Below are positions 40,408 to 49,947 of a stretch of DNA of 64,000 nt, one piece after another. The notes under the pieces are model-generated. The model saw only the letters and a list, made by a program, of their open reading frames with translations, was not told the origin of the DNA and ran no database searches. Numbering within the stretch: position 1 is the stretch's first letter; every line of letters begins with the position of its first letter. Location: positions 62,001-126,000 of the forward strand of contig SHZK01000004.1 of NCBI GenBank assembly GCA_009692305.1, read 5' to 3'. The DNA is from Gammaproteobacteria bacterium. Its GTDB lineage: Bacteria > Pseudomonadota > Gammaproteobacteria > Pseudomonadales > Pseudohongiellaceae. Position numbers and translations under genes: made by a program.

Positions 40408-40727
40408 TGCAGTCAAGATTGATACCTGATCCTGCCTGACCAAGGGCCACATTTCGCCTCTAATTGCAGAATAATTCAGGAAAAAGCTGTTTGTAACTCT
40501 AAATGTTACCAGCCTGCTCAGTATTTATCTTATATCAAGGATTTCATCGGACCAGCGCTCGAATAGCCTTGCGCAGGGCTTTCCAGCCCCTCTATACTTA
40601 CCGGGTTATGCGAAATCTGGCTGCGTTTTGGTAACAGTAAACCCACTAGCCAGCAGTTGGTTTTATTCCGCAATAACAAAGCAAACCCATAGCTAGAATA
40701 ATTATCCTTACATAAGGGAGAAGTCCA
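40408..40727 (+). promoter_or_regulatory. Upstream region of the first TonB receptor (duplicated)
   Basis: No gene. About 230 nt of this region (from about 40490) resembles 44260-44497 before the second receptor. The closest block is CCATAGCTAGAATAATTATC with CTTACATAAGGG (40686-40718); the second copy (44456-44488) differs by one base there. GGGAGAAGTCC is the SD. The conserved block probably holds the promoter. Confidence 0.6.
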
Positions 40728-43700
40728 ATGCGCAAAACCTTCCCCGGTCATCGCAAGGCAATCACGCTTGCTGTACTGACCGCAATCTCATTGCCTGTGG
40801 CAGCACAGGATGACGCTGATATCGAAGAAGTCTTGGTTACAGGGTCCTACATCCGAGGGGCAGCTCTGAATGCACCTTCGCCGGTTCAAGTAATAGACCG
40901 GGCCAGTATCGAAGCCCAGGGCGCATCCGCGATTTGGGATGTGATCAGAAACCTGGAAGTGAATCAGGGTTCCGATACCAGTGTCCGGGGCTCGGAAGAT
41001 GCTGGACAATTGGCAGGTACAGCATCAGTAAACCTGCGAAATTTAGGCGGCAACTCTACATTAACTCTGATCAATGGCAAGCGCTTCACTCCGGTCGCGG
41101 TAGTTAGCAGCTCCGGTCAGGAAACCGTTGACTTGAACAGTATCCCGCTGGTGATGACCGAGCGGGTGGAAGTGTTGACCGATGGTGGCTCTGCACTATA
41201 CGGCTCCGACGCAGTGGCCGGTGTGGTAAACGTAATCATGCGTACCAATTTTGAAGGCTTTGAACTTTACGCGGATACGCAGGGAATTGAAGAAGCTGGA
41301 GATATTTACGAAAACACCTTCAGTGCTATTTGGGGCAGCAGTTTTAACGACGGCGCTACCAATCTGGTTATTTCCGGAGAACATTTCGACAGAGATCCGG
41401 TAAGCGTTGAATATGCCAGTTATTATGACCCGGATCGTGCAGCTTACTCTGATCGAGTCGGCTCCTTTGGAGTTTTTACGTTACTAGGCGCTGGCTTCAA
41501 CCCAGCTTACATCAATGGCCCATTGACCGCACAAAATCGCGCTGAGCGAGTTCAATTGGGCGAGTCCATATCTGGTACCAACGGCATTGTGTGGTCAGAC
41601 CCCCTTTGCACCACACAATCAGGACCGAATGGAGCTTTCTTCATTGACAATCGGTTTAGCGGTAAAGGTCGCCTGAACGGAACCTGTCAGGAAGATACGC
41701 TTGACGAGCAGTTTATTACTATTGGGCAGACCCGTTCCAGTTTGGCAGGCTCGCTTGAGCATACCTTCAATGAAAATGTGGAGTTTTATTCATTTTTCCA
41801 ATACTCCGATACCGAAACTGCCAGAGAAGGCAGCGGATACACATTCTCACGCTCACAACATGCCATTCCTTCTCCATCACTATTAGGCGCATTTTCGCAG
41901 CTGGTTGGCAATCCCGCCGCAGTAGCGCCAACTAACAATCCCCACACCATAGCAAACGGTGGTTTTGGTGTGGGATACATGACTTCTGGAAACGCAATTT
42001 CCACTGGCTGGCCCAGAACTGGTGAAGATCGTATCACTGACAATATCACCTCAGGCGCACAGCTCGGCTTACGCGGGGAATTTGATTTTGCCGATCGAAC
42101 CTTGAACTATGATCTGTCTTATTCTTACAGCGAGTCTAGCGTTGAGCAGCAATACGAGACATTGATCCGCGATAGAACTGAAATGGCTCTGATGGGATTG
42201 GGCGGGGAAAATTGCAAGCCAAACGGCACACCAAACTTAAATTTCCTTGCTGGTCCAGGTCTGGGTGCATTGAGCGGACTATTCGCTATTGTCTTCCCAG
42301 GTTATATCCTGAATACCCGTGAGTCCTGGTCGCAGGCGCTTACCAGCACCAACCAGGGCAGGGGTGGCTGTGAATTTTTCAATCCCTACCTGACTTCCCT
42401 GACTAATCCAGCGCTGGCGAATTCACCGGCATTGCTGGATTGGATGACAGACAGTGACATTCTCCGCGCCGACAAGCGCAATAATATGGGGGTTGTTGAT
42501 CTCGTAGTATCTGGCGAATTGTTTGAGATTGAAGGTGGTATGGCGCAGTTCGCTATGGGCTATCAAGGTCGCAACCAGCGTGTATCCAGCCGGGCGCCGT
42601 TAATTAATCTGCCAGGTCTGACAGTTATAACAGGTTATGGACCAGGTGGACTGGCGGCACAACCAAACCGATTCGCGAGCGAGATTACCAACAATCTGGA
42701 ATGTTCGGGCTGTATTGCGAATTTTGATGATGAACGCGATGTTGATGCGGTGTTCCTGGAATTGTCACTGCCCTTCCTGGAGAATGTAGAATCACAGGTT
42801 GCGCTGCGCTGGGAAGACTACGGTGGAAATATCGGTAGCGATATTTCTCCAAAAGTTGCGCTTAGCTGGCGGCCTTTCGACGAACTGTTGCTGAGGACGT
42901 CGTACTCTCAGTCCTTCCGGGCTCCAAATATCGGTGTAGTCAATCAGTCTTTTGAGTCTTTCGGCACCACTGTGCTCGATCCTATACGCAATCAAAGTGT
43001 GCGCGCCGGCTTGTTGCCAGCAGTCAACGCCAATGGCATTGCGAATGGTTCGTTTACTATTGGAGCGCCGAATCCGAATTTGGAAAACGAGACTGCGGAT
43101 ACTTACAATATCGGTTTCCAATGGACTCCTTCCGGGGATTTGGAAGGCTTTTCGGTAGGTGTCGATGTGTGGCGTTTCGAGGTTGAAGGCCGCGTACTGC
43201 CAAAGATACCTCGATCAGCGCTGGATCCGGAAATAGCGAATTTCAATCTTGCGGCTCAGAATCCCGCTAACTATATTTTGAATAACACTATTCCCATCGA
43301 TGCTCGCGGTCCCAATGGCCTGCCGGTTCCTTGTACTCCGGCTTCCTTTCCGGATCAAGCCTCCGCTGCGCGCCGTAATTGTGTAGTAAACCCACAGGCG
43401 TATGTGACGGATGGCGTGCAACGCAATATGACTGATACCAATGCTTCTCTTATTACGCTCGTATTGCCGGCCGTCAATGCAGGTTTATTCGAAGTGCAGG
43501 GAATCGACTTGCGTGCCGGCTACAGCTGGGAAAATAACTGGGGTAGCTTCCGCGTTGGGTTTGATTACACGCACGTGGATGAGTTTCTGGTTAGCGATGT
43601 ACCGGGTCTTGAAGCAGGTTTTCAATCAACTGGTGAGTTCGATGCTGCTGGCGTCGATGGGGAACAAAATATCGTACGCGAAGTACCGGATAACAAAGGC

Positions 43701-44048
43701 ACCCTCAGCTTTAGCTGGGCATCCGGCAACCATCGAGTATCGTTATTTAATCGTCACATTGGCTCGTATCAGGTGCTTAGCCACCGGCAATTCCTGGCTA
43801 ACCCACAAACCACGCCTCTGGACGCGGCTTACGCCAAATCCAGTGTGGCCAGTTATGATACCTGGGATGTTCAGTACAATTATAACCATGAGTGGGCAAA
43901 TTCAGCCTTGGGTACTACCGGATTCACCGTGGGTGTAATAGACGCCCTGAATGCGGATCTCCCCTTGTTTAGACGTAGTACTTTTGATGCGTCTGTGTTT
44001 GACGGTCGTGGACGACGCTTGTACGCCAGAGCGTTGTGGCAGTTCTGA
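40728..44048 (+). CDS. TonB-dependent outer-membrane receptor, copy 1
   Basis: An 1106-aa receptor. Signal peptide (MRKTFPGHRKAITLAVLTAISLPVAAQ), then the plug: EEVLVTGSYIRG, SPVQVIDRASIEAQG, LRNLGGNSTLTLINGKR, and VMTERVEVLTDGGSALYGSDAVAGVVN. The large barrel follows and ends RGRRLYARALWQF with terminal Phe. The plug resembles that of receptors for large or complex substrates in marine gammaproteobacteria; the substrate is unknown. It is a tandem paralogue of the next gene. Followed by a strong terminator. Confidence 0.93.
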   Translation: MRKTFPGHRKAITLAVLTAISLPVAAQDDADIEEVLVTGSYIRGAALNAPSPVQVIDRASIEAQGASAIWDVIRNLEVNQGSDTSVRGSEDAGQLAGTASVNLRNLGGNSTLTLINGKRFTPVAVVSSSGQETVDLNSIPLVMTERVEVLTDGGSALYGSDAVAGVVNVIMRTNFEGFELYADTQGIEEAGDIYENTFSAIWGSSFNDGATNLVISGEHFDRDPVSVEYASYYDPDRAAYSDRVGSFGVFTLLGAGFNPAYINGPLTAQNRAERVQLGESISGTNGIVWSDPLCTTQSGPNGAFFIDNRFSGKGRLNGTCQEDTLDEQFITIGQTRSSLAGSLEHTFNENVEFYSFFQYSDTETAREGSGYTFSRSQHAIPSPSLLGAFSQLVGNPAAVAPTNNPHTIANGGFGVGYMTSGNAISTGWPRTGEDRITDNITSGAQLGLRGEFDFADRTLNYDLSYSYSESSVEQQYETLIRDRTEMALMGLGGENCKPNGTPNLNFLAGPGLGALSGLFAIVFPGYILNTRESWSQALTSTNQGRGGCEFFNPYLTSLTNPALANSPALLDWMTDSDILRADKRNNMGVVDLVVSGELFEIEGGMAQFAMGYQGRNQRVSSRAPLINLPGLTVITGYGPGGLAAQPNRFASEITNNLECSGCIANFDDERDVDAVFLELSLPFLENVESQVALRWEDYGGNIGSDISPKVALSWRPFDELLLRTSYSQSFRAPNIGVVNQSFESFGTTVLDPIRNQSVRAGLLPAVNANGIANGSFTIGAPNPNLENETADTYNIGFQWTPSGDLEGFSVGVDVWRFEVEGRVLPKIPRSALDPEIANFNLAAQNPANYILNNTIPIDARGPNGLPVPCTPASFPDQASAARRNCVVNPQAYVTDGVQRNMTDTNASLITLVLPAVNAGLFEVQGIDLRAGYSWENNWGSFRVGFDYTHVDEFLVSDVPGLEAGFQSTGEFDAAGVDGEQNIVREVPDNKGTLSFSWASGNHRVSLFNRHIGSYQVLSHRQFLANPQTTPLDAAYAKSSVASYDTWDVQYNYNHEWANSALGTTGFTVGVIDALNADLPLFRRSTFDASVFDGRGRRLYARALWQF

Positions 44049-44104: not shown

Positions 44105-44497
44105 TGCATGGGTTTTTTCAAAATATCAGGTACCGAACCACGGCTGCAAAATAGTGAGGTGACGAGCTGTCCCAAAAAACGCAGCGCACCATAAATAGTG
44201 CTAGTTACTACCTCTCTAATAGTCATCATCCGGGATCTTCCCAGGAACAGGTCCTCCTTATTATTCAAAATGTTACCCGCCTACTCAAGATTCGTCTCAG
44301 CTCCAAGGTTTGCTTGGAATTAGGGCTGGAATAGCATTGCGCGGGGCTTTCCAATCGCTCTATACTGACCCAGTTATGTGAAATTCCGCTGCGTATTAGC
44401 AAATCTAAACTCACTCGCCAATATGCTGTCTTATTCCGCAATAACTCAAAGCAATCCCATAGCTAGAATAATTATCCTTAAATAAGGGGGAAGTCCA
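44105..44497 (+). promoter_or_regulatory. Upstream region of the second TonB receptor (duplicated)
   Basis: No gene. The second half (44260-44497) is a diverged copy of the region upstream of receptor 1, including the conserved block at 44456-44488 and the SD GGGGGAAGTCC. The first part (44105-44260) shows nothing recognisable. Confidence 0.55.
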
Positions 44498-47400
44498 ATG
44501 CGCAGATCCTTCCCCGGTCGTCGCAAGGCAATCACGCTTGCTGTACTGGCCGGAATCTCATTTCCTGTGGTAGCACAGGATGACCCAGAAGCCGAAATCG
44601 AAGAAGTCTTGGTTACAGGGTCCTACATCCGGGGCACGCCTCTGGATGCACCTTCACCGGTTCAAGTGGTAGACCGAGCAAGTATTGAGGCCCAGGGGGC
44701 AGCAATTATTTGGGACGTCATCAAGAACCTGGAAGTGAACTCAGGTTCAGTCACTAACCCTGGATCTGGCGACAATAGCCAGGTAGAAGGCACGGCTAAC
44801 GTCAACCTTCGTAACCTGGGTGAAAACTCAACTCTGACTTTGATCAATGGCAAGCGCCAGGTCGGCGCAGCTGCCAATACCCGCAGTGGTGGCGAATTCG
44901 TAGACTTGAACGCCATACCGTTGGTTATGACTGAGCGCGTTGAAGTACTCACCGACGGCGGTTCAGCACTGTATGGTGCGGACGCGGTAGCGGGTGTGGT
45001 CAACATCATCATGCGTACTGACTTCGAAGGTCTGGAAGTGTACGGTGACCTGCAAGGTGTCGAAGCAGCCGGTAGTCAATTTGACGCCACGGTCAGCGCC
45101 ATCTGGGGCTGGGGTAGCGACGATGGCAATACTCACCTGGTATTGTCCGCCGAGCGCTTCGAGCGCGACCCGGTATCGGTGCAAGACGGCAACTTCTTCG
45201 ATGAGAATTCCCAGTTTCTGGGCACCGTCGGTACTGCCGGAAGCTTGGTCTCCAGCACAGCCTTGGGTGCGCGGGTGAGTCCCGGTTGGCTTAACAACGA
45301 AGTCAGAGATTGGAACGTTGCCAATGGTGGCCTAGCCACAGCGGTCTATACCGATCCTGGCTGTTATACGTTGAAGTCTCAAGACGGTTCGCCTTTAATA
45401 ATCGGCGCCTTGCGTGAAATACGTGGCGAGCGTGGCGGGACCTGTCGCGAAGACGTCTCCGAGTGGAACTATATTTCCCAGCAAGCCGCTCGTGACAGCT
45501 TTGCGGGTGCTTTTAATCACACCTTCGGCAACGGCACTGAGTTCTATTCATTTGCCCAGTATTCGGATTCGAACACTGTGCGGGCCGACGACGGCTACAA
45601 TCAATCCCGTGGACCAACCGTATTCCTGGCCGCGCCAGGTAGCACCGCAGGCAATCCCGCGTATGGCGGTTACGGCATTGGGATGTCAGCCGAGCTTGGT
45701 TATTTTGCACCCAGCGTAGGCCTGACCCGTCCAACCGCAGCCACCATTACCAATTCACCGCTGTCTGCTGCCAATGGTGGACCGAACGTGACCTTGTGGC
45801 AGGGTCTGCGTTATGGCCTGCCGCGACAAGGGGCCGACGATAACACCACCTGGACCAATACTTCTGGTATACAAGCCGGCTTACGCGGCGAATTCGAAGT
45901 GGCGGATCGGGTGCTGAACTACGACGTGAGCTACGCCTGGAGTGGATCATCACTGGAACAGACTTATCGCACCTTTGACCGCGATCGTTCCGAGCTGGCC
46001 GCGAATGGTTTGGGCGGACCAAACTGCAAACCTAATGGACGACCAGATTTCAATTTCCAGGGTGCGACAGTTCTGGGTAGCAATGCCTTGAATATGTGGA
46101 ATCCGAAATTGTACGGGCTAGGGTTGACCCAGACCTTCTTCCCGGGCTTCGTGTTCACCACCCGTGAAAACATGTCCTATGGCCTCACCAGTAACAACCA
46201 GGGCCAGGGCGGTTGTCAGTTCTACAATCCGTTCCTCAGTGCCTTGACCAATCCGGCGCTGAGGAATAGCGAAGAGTTGATGGAATGGATTAACGTCAAG
46301 ACCAACGTGCGCGACAAGCGCAATAAGATGGCGGTATTCGATGCTGTCGTCTCCGGTGAACTGTTCGAGATGCGCGGTGGTACCGCACAATTCGCAGCCG
46401 GTGGCCAGTATCGTTCATCCAATAACCACTCGCGCGCTTCCCTGCTTAACCTGCCTGGCTTGACCAATCGCATCCTCGGTTACGATGCTGCTGGCAAACC
46501 GAATAACTTCCATTACGTCAGTAATAACTTTGACTGTTCACTGTGTGCGTATAACTACGACCACGAACGTAATGTTAGCGCGGTGTTTATGGAATTGTCC
46601 CTGCCGTTCATTGAGAACGTAGAGACCCAGATTGCACTGCGTTACGAAGACTACGGTGGCCAAATCGGCAGCGAACTATCACCCAAGTTGGCGGTGAGCT
46701 GGCGGCCTATTGATACGTTGTTGGTGCGCGGTTCCTTCTCACAATCTTTCCGTGCCCCTAACGTCACCATCATTGAGACAGGTCTGGAATCATCCGGTGC
46801 AACTTTCCGCGATCCGATTCGTAACCAGTCAGTGCGTGCCGGTATTCTGCCAGCTACCAACGAGAATGCGATTCCAGGCTTTACCTATACCCTGGGCGTT
46901 CCAGCGCCGGATGTGGGTAACGAGTATGCTGACACCTTCAGTACCGGTTTCCTGTGGACCCCTGCTGGTAAACTCGACGGCCTGTCGGTCGGTGCCGATT
47001 TCTGGCGCTTCGAAGTCAGCGACCGCGTGCTGCCACAACCGCCAATCTCTGCATTACAACCTGAGATTACAGCCTTTGAAGCGGCCGCCAAGAATCCAGC
47101 GAATTATGTCCTGAATGACACTATTCCTGCCGATTCTCCAACTCCCTACGCAGCTTGCAATCCAGCCGCTCTGACGGCCCAGTTTGGTAACTCTGCTAAG
47201 GAGCGTATCAACTGCGTGGTTGACCCGCGCAGCTACGTGGTGCCTGGTATTTCGCGCGCCTTCGGTGTGACTACTGCTTCCTTGATCACCCTGACTTTGA
47301 GCGCGGTCAACGCTGGCACCATCACATCCGACGGTGTGGACTTGACTACTGGTTATCGCTGGAGCAACGACTGGGGTAGCTGGGGCGTGGGTCTCGATTA

Positions 47401-47884
47401 CACCTACGTGCGTCAGTACATACTGGCCGACGTTCCTGGTTTCGAACGGGGTCTGCTGGAACTTGGTGTATTTGATGCCGCAGGTACAACCGGTGACGGC
47501 AACCTGGTGCGTTCACTGCCTGACAACAAGGGTCACATCACTTTCAACTGGCAGCGCGATCAGCAGGGTGTAACGCTGGTTAATCGTCATATCGGTTCCT
47601 ATCGGGATCTGGCATATGACGCTACGTACCAGAATGGCAGTGACTTTACCCGCTCATTGTTGACGAAAAACGTTGCGAGCTACGATACCTGGGATATACA
47701 GTATCGCTACAGCTACGAATGGGCCAACAACAATCTGGGTTCAACTATCTTCACTGCGGGCTTGTTGGATGCCTTCAATGAAGAACTGCCTTATCGTGAA
47801 AGCAGCGGCCTGCACTACGACGCCGGCGTGTTCGACGGTCGTGGACGACGTTTCTACCTTCGTGCCCTGTGGCAATTCCGCTAG
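44498..47884 (+). CDS. TonB-dependent outer-membrane receptor, copy 2
   Basis: An 1128-aa paralogue of the preceding gene. Same signal peptide style (MRRSFPGRRKAITLAVLAGI), the same plug start (EEVLVTGSYIRGTPLDAPSP) and the same end (GRGRRFYLRALWQFR). The plug is most alike; barrel loops differ widely, for example residues 230-330, suggesting a changed ligand. Ends in TAG; a longer product is not expected since the terminal strand is complete. It lies directly before the microcin-like locus, on the opposite strand. Confidence 0.93.
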   Translation: MRRSFPGRRKAITLAVLAGISFPVVAQDDPEAEIEEVLVTGSYIRGTPLDAPSPVQVVDRASIEAQGAAIIWDVIKNLEVNSGSVTNPGSGDNSQVEGTANVNLRNLGENSTLTLINGKRQVGAAANTRSGGEFVDLNAIPLVMTERVEVLTDGGSALYGADAVAGVVNIIMRTDFEGLEVYGDLQGVEAAGSQFDATVSAIWGWGSDDGNTHLVLSAERFERDPVSVQDGNFFDENSQFLGTVGTAGSLVSSTALGARVSPGWLNNEVRDWNVANGGLATAVYTDPGCYTLKSQDGSPLIIGALREIRGERGGTCREDVSEWNYISQQAARDSFAGAFNHTFGNGTEFYSFAQYSDSNTVRADDGYNQSRGPTVFLAAPGSTAGNPAYGGYGIGMSAELGYFAPSVGLTRPTAATITNSPLSAANGGPNVTLWQGLRYGLPRQGADDNTTWTNTSGIQAGLRGEFEVADRVLNYDVSYAWSGSSLEQTYRTFDRDRSELAANGLGGPNCKPNGRPDFNFQGATVLGSNALNMWNPKLYGLGLTQTFFPGFVFTTRENMSYGLTSNNQGQGGCQFYNPFLSALTNPALRNSEELMEWINVKTNVRDKRNKMAVFDAVVSGELFEMRGGTAQFAAGGQYRSSNNHSRASLLNLPGLTNRILGYDAAGKPNNFHYVSNNFDCSLCAYNYDHERNVSAVFMELSLPFIENVETQIALRYEDYGGQIGSELSPKLAVSWRPIDTLLVRGSFSQSFRAPNVTIIETGLESSGATFRDPIRNQSVRAGILPATNENAIPGFTYTLGVPAPDVGNEYADTFSTGFLWTPAGKLDGLSVGADFWRFEVSDRVLPQPPISALQPEITAFEAAAKNPANYVLNDTIPADSPTPYAACNPAALTAQFGNSAKERINCVVDPRSYVVPGISRAFGVTTASLITLTLSAVNAGTITSDGVDLTTGYRWSNDWGSWGVGLDYTYVRQYILADVPGFERGLLELGVFDAAGTTGDGNLVRSLPDNKGHITFNWQRDQQGVTLVNRHIGSYRDLAYDATYQNGSDFTRSLLTKNVASYDTWDIQYRYSYEWANNNLGSTIFTAGLLDAFNEELPYRESSGLHYDAGVFDGRGRRFYLRALWQFR

Positions 47885-47912: not shown

Positions 47913-47947
47913 GAAAACGGCGATGAGCGATCATCGCCGTTTTTTTA
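47913..47947. terminator. Bidirectional terminator between TonB receptor 2 and the membrane-protein gene
   Basis: AAACGGCGATGA and TCATCGCCGTTT with a 4-nt loop; T-runs on both strands. Almost identical to 44072-44104, part of the duplicated unit. It also serves the minus-strand gene that ends at 47945. Confidence 0.9.
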
Positions 47948-48247
47948 TGTGAGCCAGAAGTAAAGAATCACTGTCAGGGTTAGCACATAGAACAGGGGAA
48001 ACCCGTGCAGGAATTTCGTATCCCTGCTCCTGTCGAATATTTTACCGAACTCATCCATGTTTTTTGTAAGTAGCATCTCCGGGTTTCTATACACCCAATA
48101 CAATACGGATGCCGATGAAATCCCCGTCATTGCCCCAGCGAAATCCGGGTGAATGAAAGTTCGACCGATTGCCAGTATGACTGCGGCAAGCACCATCCCC
48201 AGCACAATATTCTTTGCAGTCTTCTGTGAAATTTGCATACGCTGCAT
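47945..48247 (-). CDS. Small membrane protein, candidate immunity protein
   Basis: A 100-aa protein with three probable membrane helices (about 13-31 NIVLGMVLAAVILAIG, 36-53 AGAMTGISSASVLYW, 82-99 FPLFYVLTLTVILYFWL) separated by a charged loop (LLTKNMDEFGKIFDRSRDTK). AAAGGAAAA precedes the ATG. It starts 8 nt after the stop of the double-glycine peptide, on the same strand, the order seen for class II microcins or bacteriocins and their immunity genes. No homologue recognised; immunity is inferred from position, size and topology only. Confidence 0.6.
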   Translation of the reverse strand: MQRMQISQKTAKNIVLGMVLAAVILAIGRTFIHPDFAGAMTGISSASVLYWVYRNPEMLLTKNMDEFGKIFDRSRDTKFLHGFPLFYVLTLTVILYFWLT

Positions 48248-48255
48248 TTTTCCTT

Positions 48256-48474
48256 TTAGGAATATTCATCCAGTGCCCAGCTGGTCACACCAAAACTGAT
48301 CCCGAATACGCCCCCTAGTACCGCGCCTTGAGCACCAAATCGCGCGGCACCCATTAACGTGCACTCATATGCTGCGCCAAAGATAGTCCCTAGCGCACTG
48401 CCCTCGCCCATGTATTCAGTCATCGCTGAACCGCCGCCGACCCGATCAACTTCTATTGCTGTAAGTTCTCTCAT
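48256..48474 (-). CDS. Microcin/class II bacteriocin-like peptide with double-glycine leader
   Basis: A 72-aa precursor. The leader MRELTAIEVDRVGGG has the hydrophobic spacing and GG cleavage site of peptides matured by C39-peptidase ABC exporters. The remaining 57 residues are Gly/Ala-rich and hydrophobic with small-xxx-small motifs (GSALGTIFGAAYE, GAVLGGVFGISFG), like pore-forming class II peptides. CAGGAGACAGACG lies before the ATG. A hairpin (48520-48557) lies 46-83 nt upstream. No C39 exporter is in the window, so export would depend on one elsewhere. Confidence 0.75.
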   Translation of the reverse strand: MRELTAIEVDRVGGGSAMTEYMGEGSALGTIFGAAYECTLMGAARFGAQGAVLGGVFGISFGVTSWALDEYS

Positions 48475-48717: not shown

Positions 48718-49947
48718 CTAACAATTCCGAATAAAATCAAAATCCAGTGGCTGTTGCAGATCAATCCTGTAGTGCGTGGATGGCATTGGATATTTCAGGC
48801 CCGTGGCACAATTGAACAGCATCACCTGTTCATCTGACTTGATGCGACCACTGCGCAATTCCTGTTTCAGCGCGGCCAGTGTTGCTGCACCTTCCGGACA
48901 CAGCAAGATGCCTTCCTTGCGTGCACATTCCTGATGCGCCTGCTGTATGTCCGCATCACTCACGGCCACTGCGAAGCCGTTACTCGCTCGCACCGCATCA
49001 AGGATCAGGAAATCACCGACTGCCGCCGGCACCCGAATCCCGGATGCTATGGTGCTGGCATTTTGCCAGGGCTCGGCATGACGCGCTCCAGCTTCGAAGG
49101 CTTTTACAATCGGTGCACAGCCACTAGCCTGCACCGCCACCATGCGCGGCCGTTTCGCACCGATCCAGCCAATCGCCTCCAACTCAGCAAATGCTTTCCA
49201 CATGCCAATCAGGCCGGTACCGCCACCGGTAGGATAGAGAATAACGTCGGGCAGCTGCCAGTTCAGCTGCTCGGCCAGCTCCAGACCCATCGTCTTCTTG
49301 CCTTCGATACGGTACGGCTCCTTCAAGGTCGATGTATCAAACCACTGCATTATTTCCTTGCCTGCCCCAACGATGCGACCACAATCATTAATGTAGCCGT
49401 TGGCCAGAAAAGTCTTCGCGCCTTGAAAGGCTATCTCTTCTATATTTACCCGCGGCGTGTCTTCCGGACAGAATACAAACGTTTCAATGTCGGCCGCTGA
49501 ACAATACGCAGCCAGTGCTGCTCCGGCATTGCCATTGGTTGGCATTGCCATACGCTTTACTCCCAATTCCTTCGCCATCGCCACTGCCAGCGCCAGACCA
49601 CGGGCCTTGAACGACCCGGTTGGTAATCTGCCCTCATCCTTAATCAGTATTTCCCCAGATCCATATGCTTGCTGTAATTTTGTTGCTGGCAGAATTGGCG
49701 TCATGACTTCACCGAGCCGCACCACGTTCGCGGAGTGACGCACTGGCAGGAATTCCCGATAACGCCAGAACTCCGGCAAGCGTTCCTTCAAATCAGATTT
49801 GGATACGGCTTTCCCCAGCGCAGCGAGGTCGTATTTGACGAGCAGCGGTTTGCCGGCTTCCGACAGACCATGTAATTGCTGTGCAGGATAGTGCTTGCCG
49901 GTATAGCTGCACTCGAGGTGGGTTACGAAATTTGGATATTCTTTCAT
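48718..49947 (-). CDS. thrC: Threonine synthase
   Basis: A 409-aa PLP enzyme converting O-phosphohomoserine to threonine. The N-terminus is typical of the long archaeal/plant-like form (VTHLECSYTGKHYPAQQLHGL, KPLLVKYDL). PLP lysine in LPTGSFKARGLALAV; PTNGNAGAALAAYC and the phosphate-binding YPTGGGTGLIGMWKAF also match. Ends with CATGLKYPMP. A TAG closes the gene at the expected length. It stands alone and not with thrA/thrB, so a related PLP lyase role cannot be fully excluded. Confidence 0.88.
   Translation of the reverse strand: MKEYPNFVTHLECSYTGKHYPAQQLHGLSEAGKPLLVKYDLAALGKAVSKSDLKERLPEFWRYREFLPVRHSANVVRLGEVMTPILPATKLQQAYGSGEILIKDEGRLPTGSFKARGLALAVAMAKELGVKRMAMPTNGNAGAALAAYCSAADIETFVFCPEDTPRVNIEEIAFQGAKTFLANGYINDCGRIVGAGKEIMQWFDTSTLKEPYRIEGKKTMGLELAEQLNWQLPDVILYPTGGGTGLIGMWKAFAELEAIGWIGAKRPRMVAVQASGCAPIVKAFEAGARHAEPWQNASTIASGIRVPAAVGDFLILDAVRASNGFAVAVSDADIQQAHQECARKEGILLCPEGAATLAALKQELRSGRIKSDEQVMLFNCATGLKYPMPSTHYRIDLQQPLDFDFIRNC

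Follow-up and report, generated by a model that had tools for sequence, protein, structure and literature searches.

The locus described here raises the question of whether a pair of short genes lying beside two TonB-dependent receptor genes encodes a microcin-like bacteriocin and its immunity protein, and whether the organism still releases the peptide. The window, the whole stretch of 64,000 nucleotides that was analysed, comes from the genome of an uncultured marine-type bacterium (G000; other G numbers are the relatives compared). The comparison sets comprised 84 genomes of the same genus and 369 genomes of the class, and 21 gene neighbourhoods were read, some of them cut by contig ends. 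A preliminary description of the sequence had proposed a microcin-like precursor with a double-glycine (GG) leader and a Gly/Ala-rich core, followed after 8 nt by a candidate immunity gene. Open reading frames and alignment bear out this arrangement on the minus strand:

48256..48474, minus strand: precursor peptide gene, 72 aa (ORF; homologues in 23 genus genomes; 23-sequence alignment)
48430..48474, minus strand: double-glycine leader, codons 1-15 (alignment conservation; model matches of relatives)
48259..48429, minus strand: predicted mature core, 57 aa (zipper shuffles; AlphaFold helices)
47945..48247, minus strand: candidate immunity protein, 100 aa, three membrane helices (ORF; AlphaFold; co-occurrence; alignment)

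The precursor gene has a clear AGGAGA ribosome site 7 nt 5' of its ATG, and its product consists of the leader MRELTAIEVDRVGGG and a core that begins SAMTEYMGEGSALGTIFG and ends with a short charged/polar C-terminus, ...ALDEYS. The leader has the pattern MRELTxxEIEQVSGG. Across the 23 aligned precursors MRELT and E8 never vary, and conservation of V12 and G14 is 90% or more. Cleavage by a C39 peptidase would be expected after Gly15; the cleavage site varies in three genomes, reading GA in G072 and lacking GG in G011 and G078. In the Gly/Ala-rich core two helices are predicted, which carry two GxxxGxxxG zippers (G25-29-33 and G50-54-58), and in the precursor family the zippers flank a mostly conserved Arg. 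Glycine zippers are found in harmless membrane proteins too. Among shuffles of the window peptide, 0.8% reached two zippers. Over the family 46 zippers were counted, where shuffling gave 13 on average and 21 at most; since its members are related, this figure makes them look more independent than they are. Structure prediction of the mature peptide, which the preliminary description had put forward as a check, returned a helical hairpin with helices at 17-37 and 40-71 (AlphaFold, pLDDT 78).

The candidate immunity ORF begins 8 nt past the precursor stop; starting it three residues later, at a second ATG, agrees with the family alignment about equally well. For the described three-helix membrane protein, AlphaFold predicted long helices at 8-32, 36-54 and 84-99 together with a helical loop (pLDDT 89.7), and the family alignment shows a conserved loop, RNP..L..K...EFG..D. 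Searches of the family libraries with this protein gave nothing convincing, the weak matches being a TcpD domain (0.02) and HRG (0.006), and searches of the PDB by sequence and by fold gave no meaningful relative. Neither protein of the window pair meets any Pfam, NCBIfam or PADLOC family, in agreement with the earlier statement that no named microcin with this sequence is known.

We found the candidate immunity protein in 22 of the 84 same-genus genomes, with the precursor directly upstream in the same order and on the same strand in 22/22 (including G059, where it is cut by a contig end). The co-occurrence in relatives that had been suggested as a check is strict, and the pairing is more than chance. 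G016 carries the pair in two tandem copies; in G103 the partner is missing and the precursor gene is damaged at its 3' end. The search of 369 genomes of the class gave no match besides G000. Named genomes, scanned with only the window protein, gave no match; with a subset alignment ten records came up, all of them MAGs of uncultured Gammaproteobacteria. Plasmids were looked for and none was found. In many genomes the pair sits between a GST gene and the gene for a pyridoxal-phosphate enzyme, which is its conserved upstream neighbour in one subgroup and serves as a synteny marker only:

48718..49947, minus strand: PALP family pyridoxal-phosphate enzyme (PF00291; gene maps)

Changes between the closest genomes are mostly silent, with ratios of 0.16 (precursor) and 0.14 (immunity) for G079-G091, and of 0.38 and 0.61 for G101-G076, where changes are few. 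Synonymous change to G000 is saturated, which precludes a selection test on the copies in the window. Pheromones are common among GG peptides, and the low non-synonymous change, together with inheritance that is vertical and syntenic in one subgroup, would also suit a secreted GG-leader signal or surface-zipper peptide that is no bacteriocin and is sensed or anchored by its membrane partner. We regard this as unlikely, since the conserved neighbours of the pair include neither a kinase nor a regulator, and since immunity systems usually have this layout of a toxin-like peptide in strict pairing with a single small multi-TM protein (PMC10233263).

The precursor most resembles the Cdz-like glycine-zipper bacteriocins, which aggregate at the cell surface and kill by contact, or else microcin V in its N-terminal half. 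Among the 23 precursors, 14 match Bacteriocin_IIc (PF10439; E up to 0.1, best 1.1e-5) and 14 match MccV (PF17508; E up to 0.1, best 1.3e-4), in each case from the model's first positions, and the best match to the E492 microcin is weak (0.01). None of the eight precursors scored singly passes the curated cut-offs (best member 22.2 vs 27 bits for MccV and 25.1 vs 27.1 bits for Bacteriocin_IIc), and the window copy matches no model. The MccV alignment covers model positions 1-58 of 104; thus the C-terminal half of microcin V is absent here. We found no receptor-binding C-terminal part and no siderophore tail, the peptide ending after the zipper core. The pair is like class IIa microcin V in its leader, glycine-rich N-terminal part and adjacent small membrane immunity protein, but differs in the sub-cut-off score, the missing C-terminal half and the unlinked exporter. 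The likeness to Bacteriocin_IIc lies in the relatives' model matches and the GxxxG motifs; here too the score is below the cut-off, the host is Gram-negative and a single peptide is paired with a three-TM partner.

Class II microcins kill after receptor-mediated uptake, often dependent on TonB. A class II microcin set consists of a pre-microcin with a GG leader, an immunity gene, a PCAT, an MFP and TolC (PMC10233263). The window pair has the N-terminal GG leader and an adjacent small membrane protein in the immunity position; it lacks the C39 exporter/MFP, scores above the family cut-offs and the C-terminal receptor part. The microcin reading of the preliminary description is supported in part. 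Cdz bacteriocins are defined by a length of 60-151 aa, a G[G/A/S] leader, one or two zippers and a short charged C-terminus, and CdzI, the immunity protein of Caulobacter, has three predicted TM domains (PMC5380434). The window pair agrees in length (72 aa), GG, two zippers, ...ALDEYS and three predicted TM helices in the partner, the likeness to CdzI being one of predicted layout. Type I export is a further likeness to Cdz (CdzC/CdzD with CdzI; PMC5380434), found here in relatives of the window genome. Unlike Cdz, the pair has one toxin gene instead of two, and its exporter is distant in the relatives and deleted in G000, with no type I secretion system, in the neighbourhoods read, within the 10 kb that holds for Cdz. 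Because the pair shares these class features in part, we take it to work like Cdz or the microcin V core, and claim formal membership of neither.

The absence of an exporter from the window, already noted in the preliminary description, extends to the whole genome: no C39 domain (PF03412) was found in the window or in the rest of G000. The domain is present in 38 of the 84 genus genomes, and occurs in 16/22 genomes with the pair vs 22/62 others (Fisher p=0.005, genomes treated as independent). Six relatives read closely contain a conserved C39 exporter operon between pepQ and gcvP, in the order MAPEG, DUF1330, YbjQ, LpxL-like acyltransferase, carrier protein, HlyD adaptor, C39-ABC, a 226-aa ORF and a 325-aa membrane protein, with slightly varying content. 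In G010, G011 and G012 the C39 transporter and the pair share a contig, ~200-265 kb apart, and no such transporter lies within 10 kb of the pair in the neighbourhoods read. As the exporter adjoins the pair in none of these neighbourhoods, the link in trans depends on the type of leader and on statistics in which related genomes count as independent. In G000 gcvP and pepQ stand 541 bp apart, and the interval holds the final third of the 325-aa gene, in which a TGA lies in frame. This is a deletion scar, by which the exporter operon was lost; it lies inside one 330-kb contig, ruling out an assembly gap. Scars with other end points are present in G022, G079 and G098, and in G103 MAPEG alone was found between pepQ and gcvP; G087 and G101, where the locus is at contig ends, were left out of the deletion count. 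The preliminary description had held that the lack of any C39 exporter would tell against the proposal. The lack is real in G000, but it arose by a local deletion while relatives kept the exporter, and so it argues against present production here and not against the nature of the genes.

Our best reading is that the pair belongs to a new family of glycine-zipper bacteriocins with immunity proteins, specific to the genus, and that this lineage has lost the exporter. That the pair is a chromosomal module of this kind, served in trans by a C39 exporter in relatives and deprived of it by deletion in G000, we consider probable. The precursor, with its C39-type double-glycine leader and zipper core, would give a two-helix membrane-active hairpin, and the downstream three-helix inner-membrane protein would guard the producer. 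In the relatives, the C39 ABC transporter and HlyD adaptor of the pepQ-gcvP operon, acting in trans, most likely cut and export the peptide, which on release would kill close kin by membrane insertion, in the manner of Cdz-like systems or of microcin V's N-terminal half. We infer each of these steps, namely cleavage, export, killing and immunity. With the exporter operon deleted, the G000 organism probably no longer releases the peptide, and would be an immune non-producer or be losing the pair. Named microcins come from enterics; with this pair a coherent peptide-immunity family is added from outside that group, in uncultured Gammaproteobacteria.

The five exporter-deleted genomes (G000, G022, G079, G098 and G103) amount to a natural series of repeated exporter deletions, with the toxin-immunity pair persisting in some and decaying in others, so that loss of production with retained immunity is open to direct study. 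The immunity gene is broken in 3/5 of them vs 1/16 exporter-bearing genomes (one-sided p=0.03, from small numbers of related genomes), which suggests that the pair and exporter loci work together. It is frameshifted in G022, lacks the first helix and has a late stop in G098, and is gone in G103; the exporter-bearing exception, G034, has a stop codon in the gene. The pattern fits a partner needed only during peptide release. In G079 and G000 the immunity gene is intact despite exporter loss, as is the precursor. This, with the low G079 ratios to the exporter-bearing G091 (0.16 and 0.14), would accord with a pair that is active here without C39, through another peptidase or exporter, or by acting inside the cell, for example as a toxin-antitoxin-like membrane pair. 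Such activity is improbable given the damage in three of five exporter-deleted genomes, and given that the only strong type I adaptor left in G000 belongs to a PrtD-like set with TolC. PrtD-like transporters use C-terminal signals and would not be expected to process GG leaders. The set (G000:C14 L139:5581-10150; types assigned by eye) comprises a PrtD-like type I system, an HlyD adaptor and TolC. In G022 (L109:7802-9019), the front part of the acyltransferase is fused in frame to the back of the operon's last gene via the exporter deletion.

Two TonB-dependent receptor genes end beside the pair, as had been described, and a hairpin stands at the end of the immunity gene:

40728..44048, plus strand: TonB-dependent receptor 1 (Pfam Plug and barrel; neighbour only, judged outside the system)
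44498..47884, plus strand: TonB-dependent receptor 2 (Pfam Plug and barrel; neighbour only, judged outside the system)
47918..47946, no strand: hairpin CGGCGATGA-GCGA-TCATCGCCG, flanked by A/T runs (found by reading the sequence)

The functional tie to these receptors that the preliminary description had drawn is rejected on synteny. Receptor 2 homologues flank the pair in 3/21 neighbourhoods (G000, G062 and G082), while the PALP and GST neighbours are conserved in many, and at other sites (G010, G011, G022, G075, G076, G078, G087 and G101) the pair stands with no homologue of the window receptors. The receptors are therefore most likely incidental, and adjacency of a TonB receptor does not by itself point to a route of uptake. 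A working TonB-dependent class II microcin, exported and entering its targets via receptors such as these two, is very unlikely: the GG leader, the adjacent three-TM protein and the receptors beside it here, with a homologue in G062 and G082, speak for it, but the genome has no C39 domain and a deleted exporter locus, 18/21 neighbourhoods lack receptor homologues, and the peptide has no C-terminal uptake region or siderophore-type tail. The hairpin, which the pattern scan did not list, probably ends transcription from both directions, that of the pair and that of TonB receptor 2. Window positions 40530-40751 and 44265-44441 are similar in sequence and lie 5' of the two receptor genes (matching antisense ORFs, cluster c34); a receptor gene with its upstream region looks tandemly duplicated.

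In G028 (L033:6019-10605, with equivalents in L034-L038), the LpxL-like acyltransferase (PF03279, 24 vs 22.3 bits) and a carrier protein (PF00550) lie directly before the HlyD adaptor and C39-ABC, and acyltransferase and adaptor adjoin C39 transporters, at lower identity, in much of the genus. Since the operon encodes such an acyltransferase with its own carrier protein, the peptide might be fatty-acylated during export, giving an acyl-modified glycine-zipper bacteriocin in the exporter-bearing relatives; we think this doubtful. A literature search for acyltransferase-carrier protein-C39 operons returned no paper, and no description of a lipidated microcin of such a kind was found. G020, whose genome has eight C39 matches, encodes two more GG-leader glycine-rich peptides (L009:1501-1782 and 2390-2677) with the leaders MRELTYEEMEQ(I/V)DGG, apparently a separate family that shares the leader.
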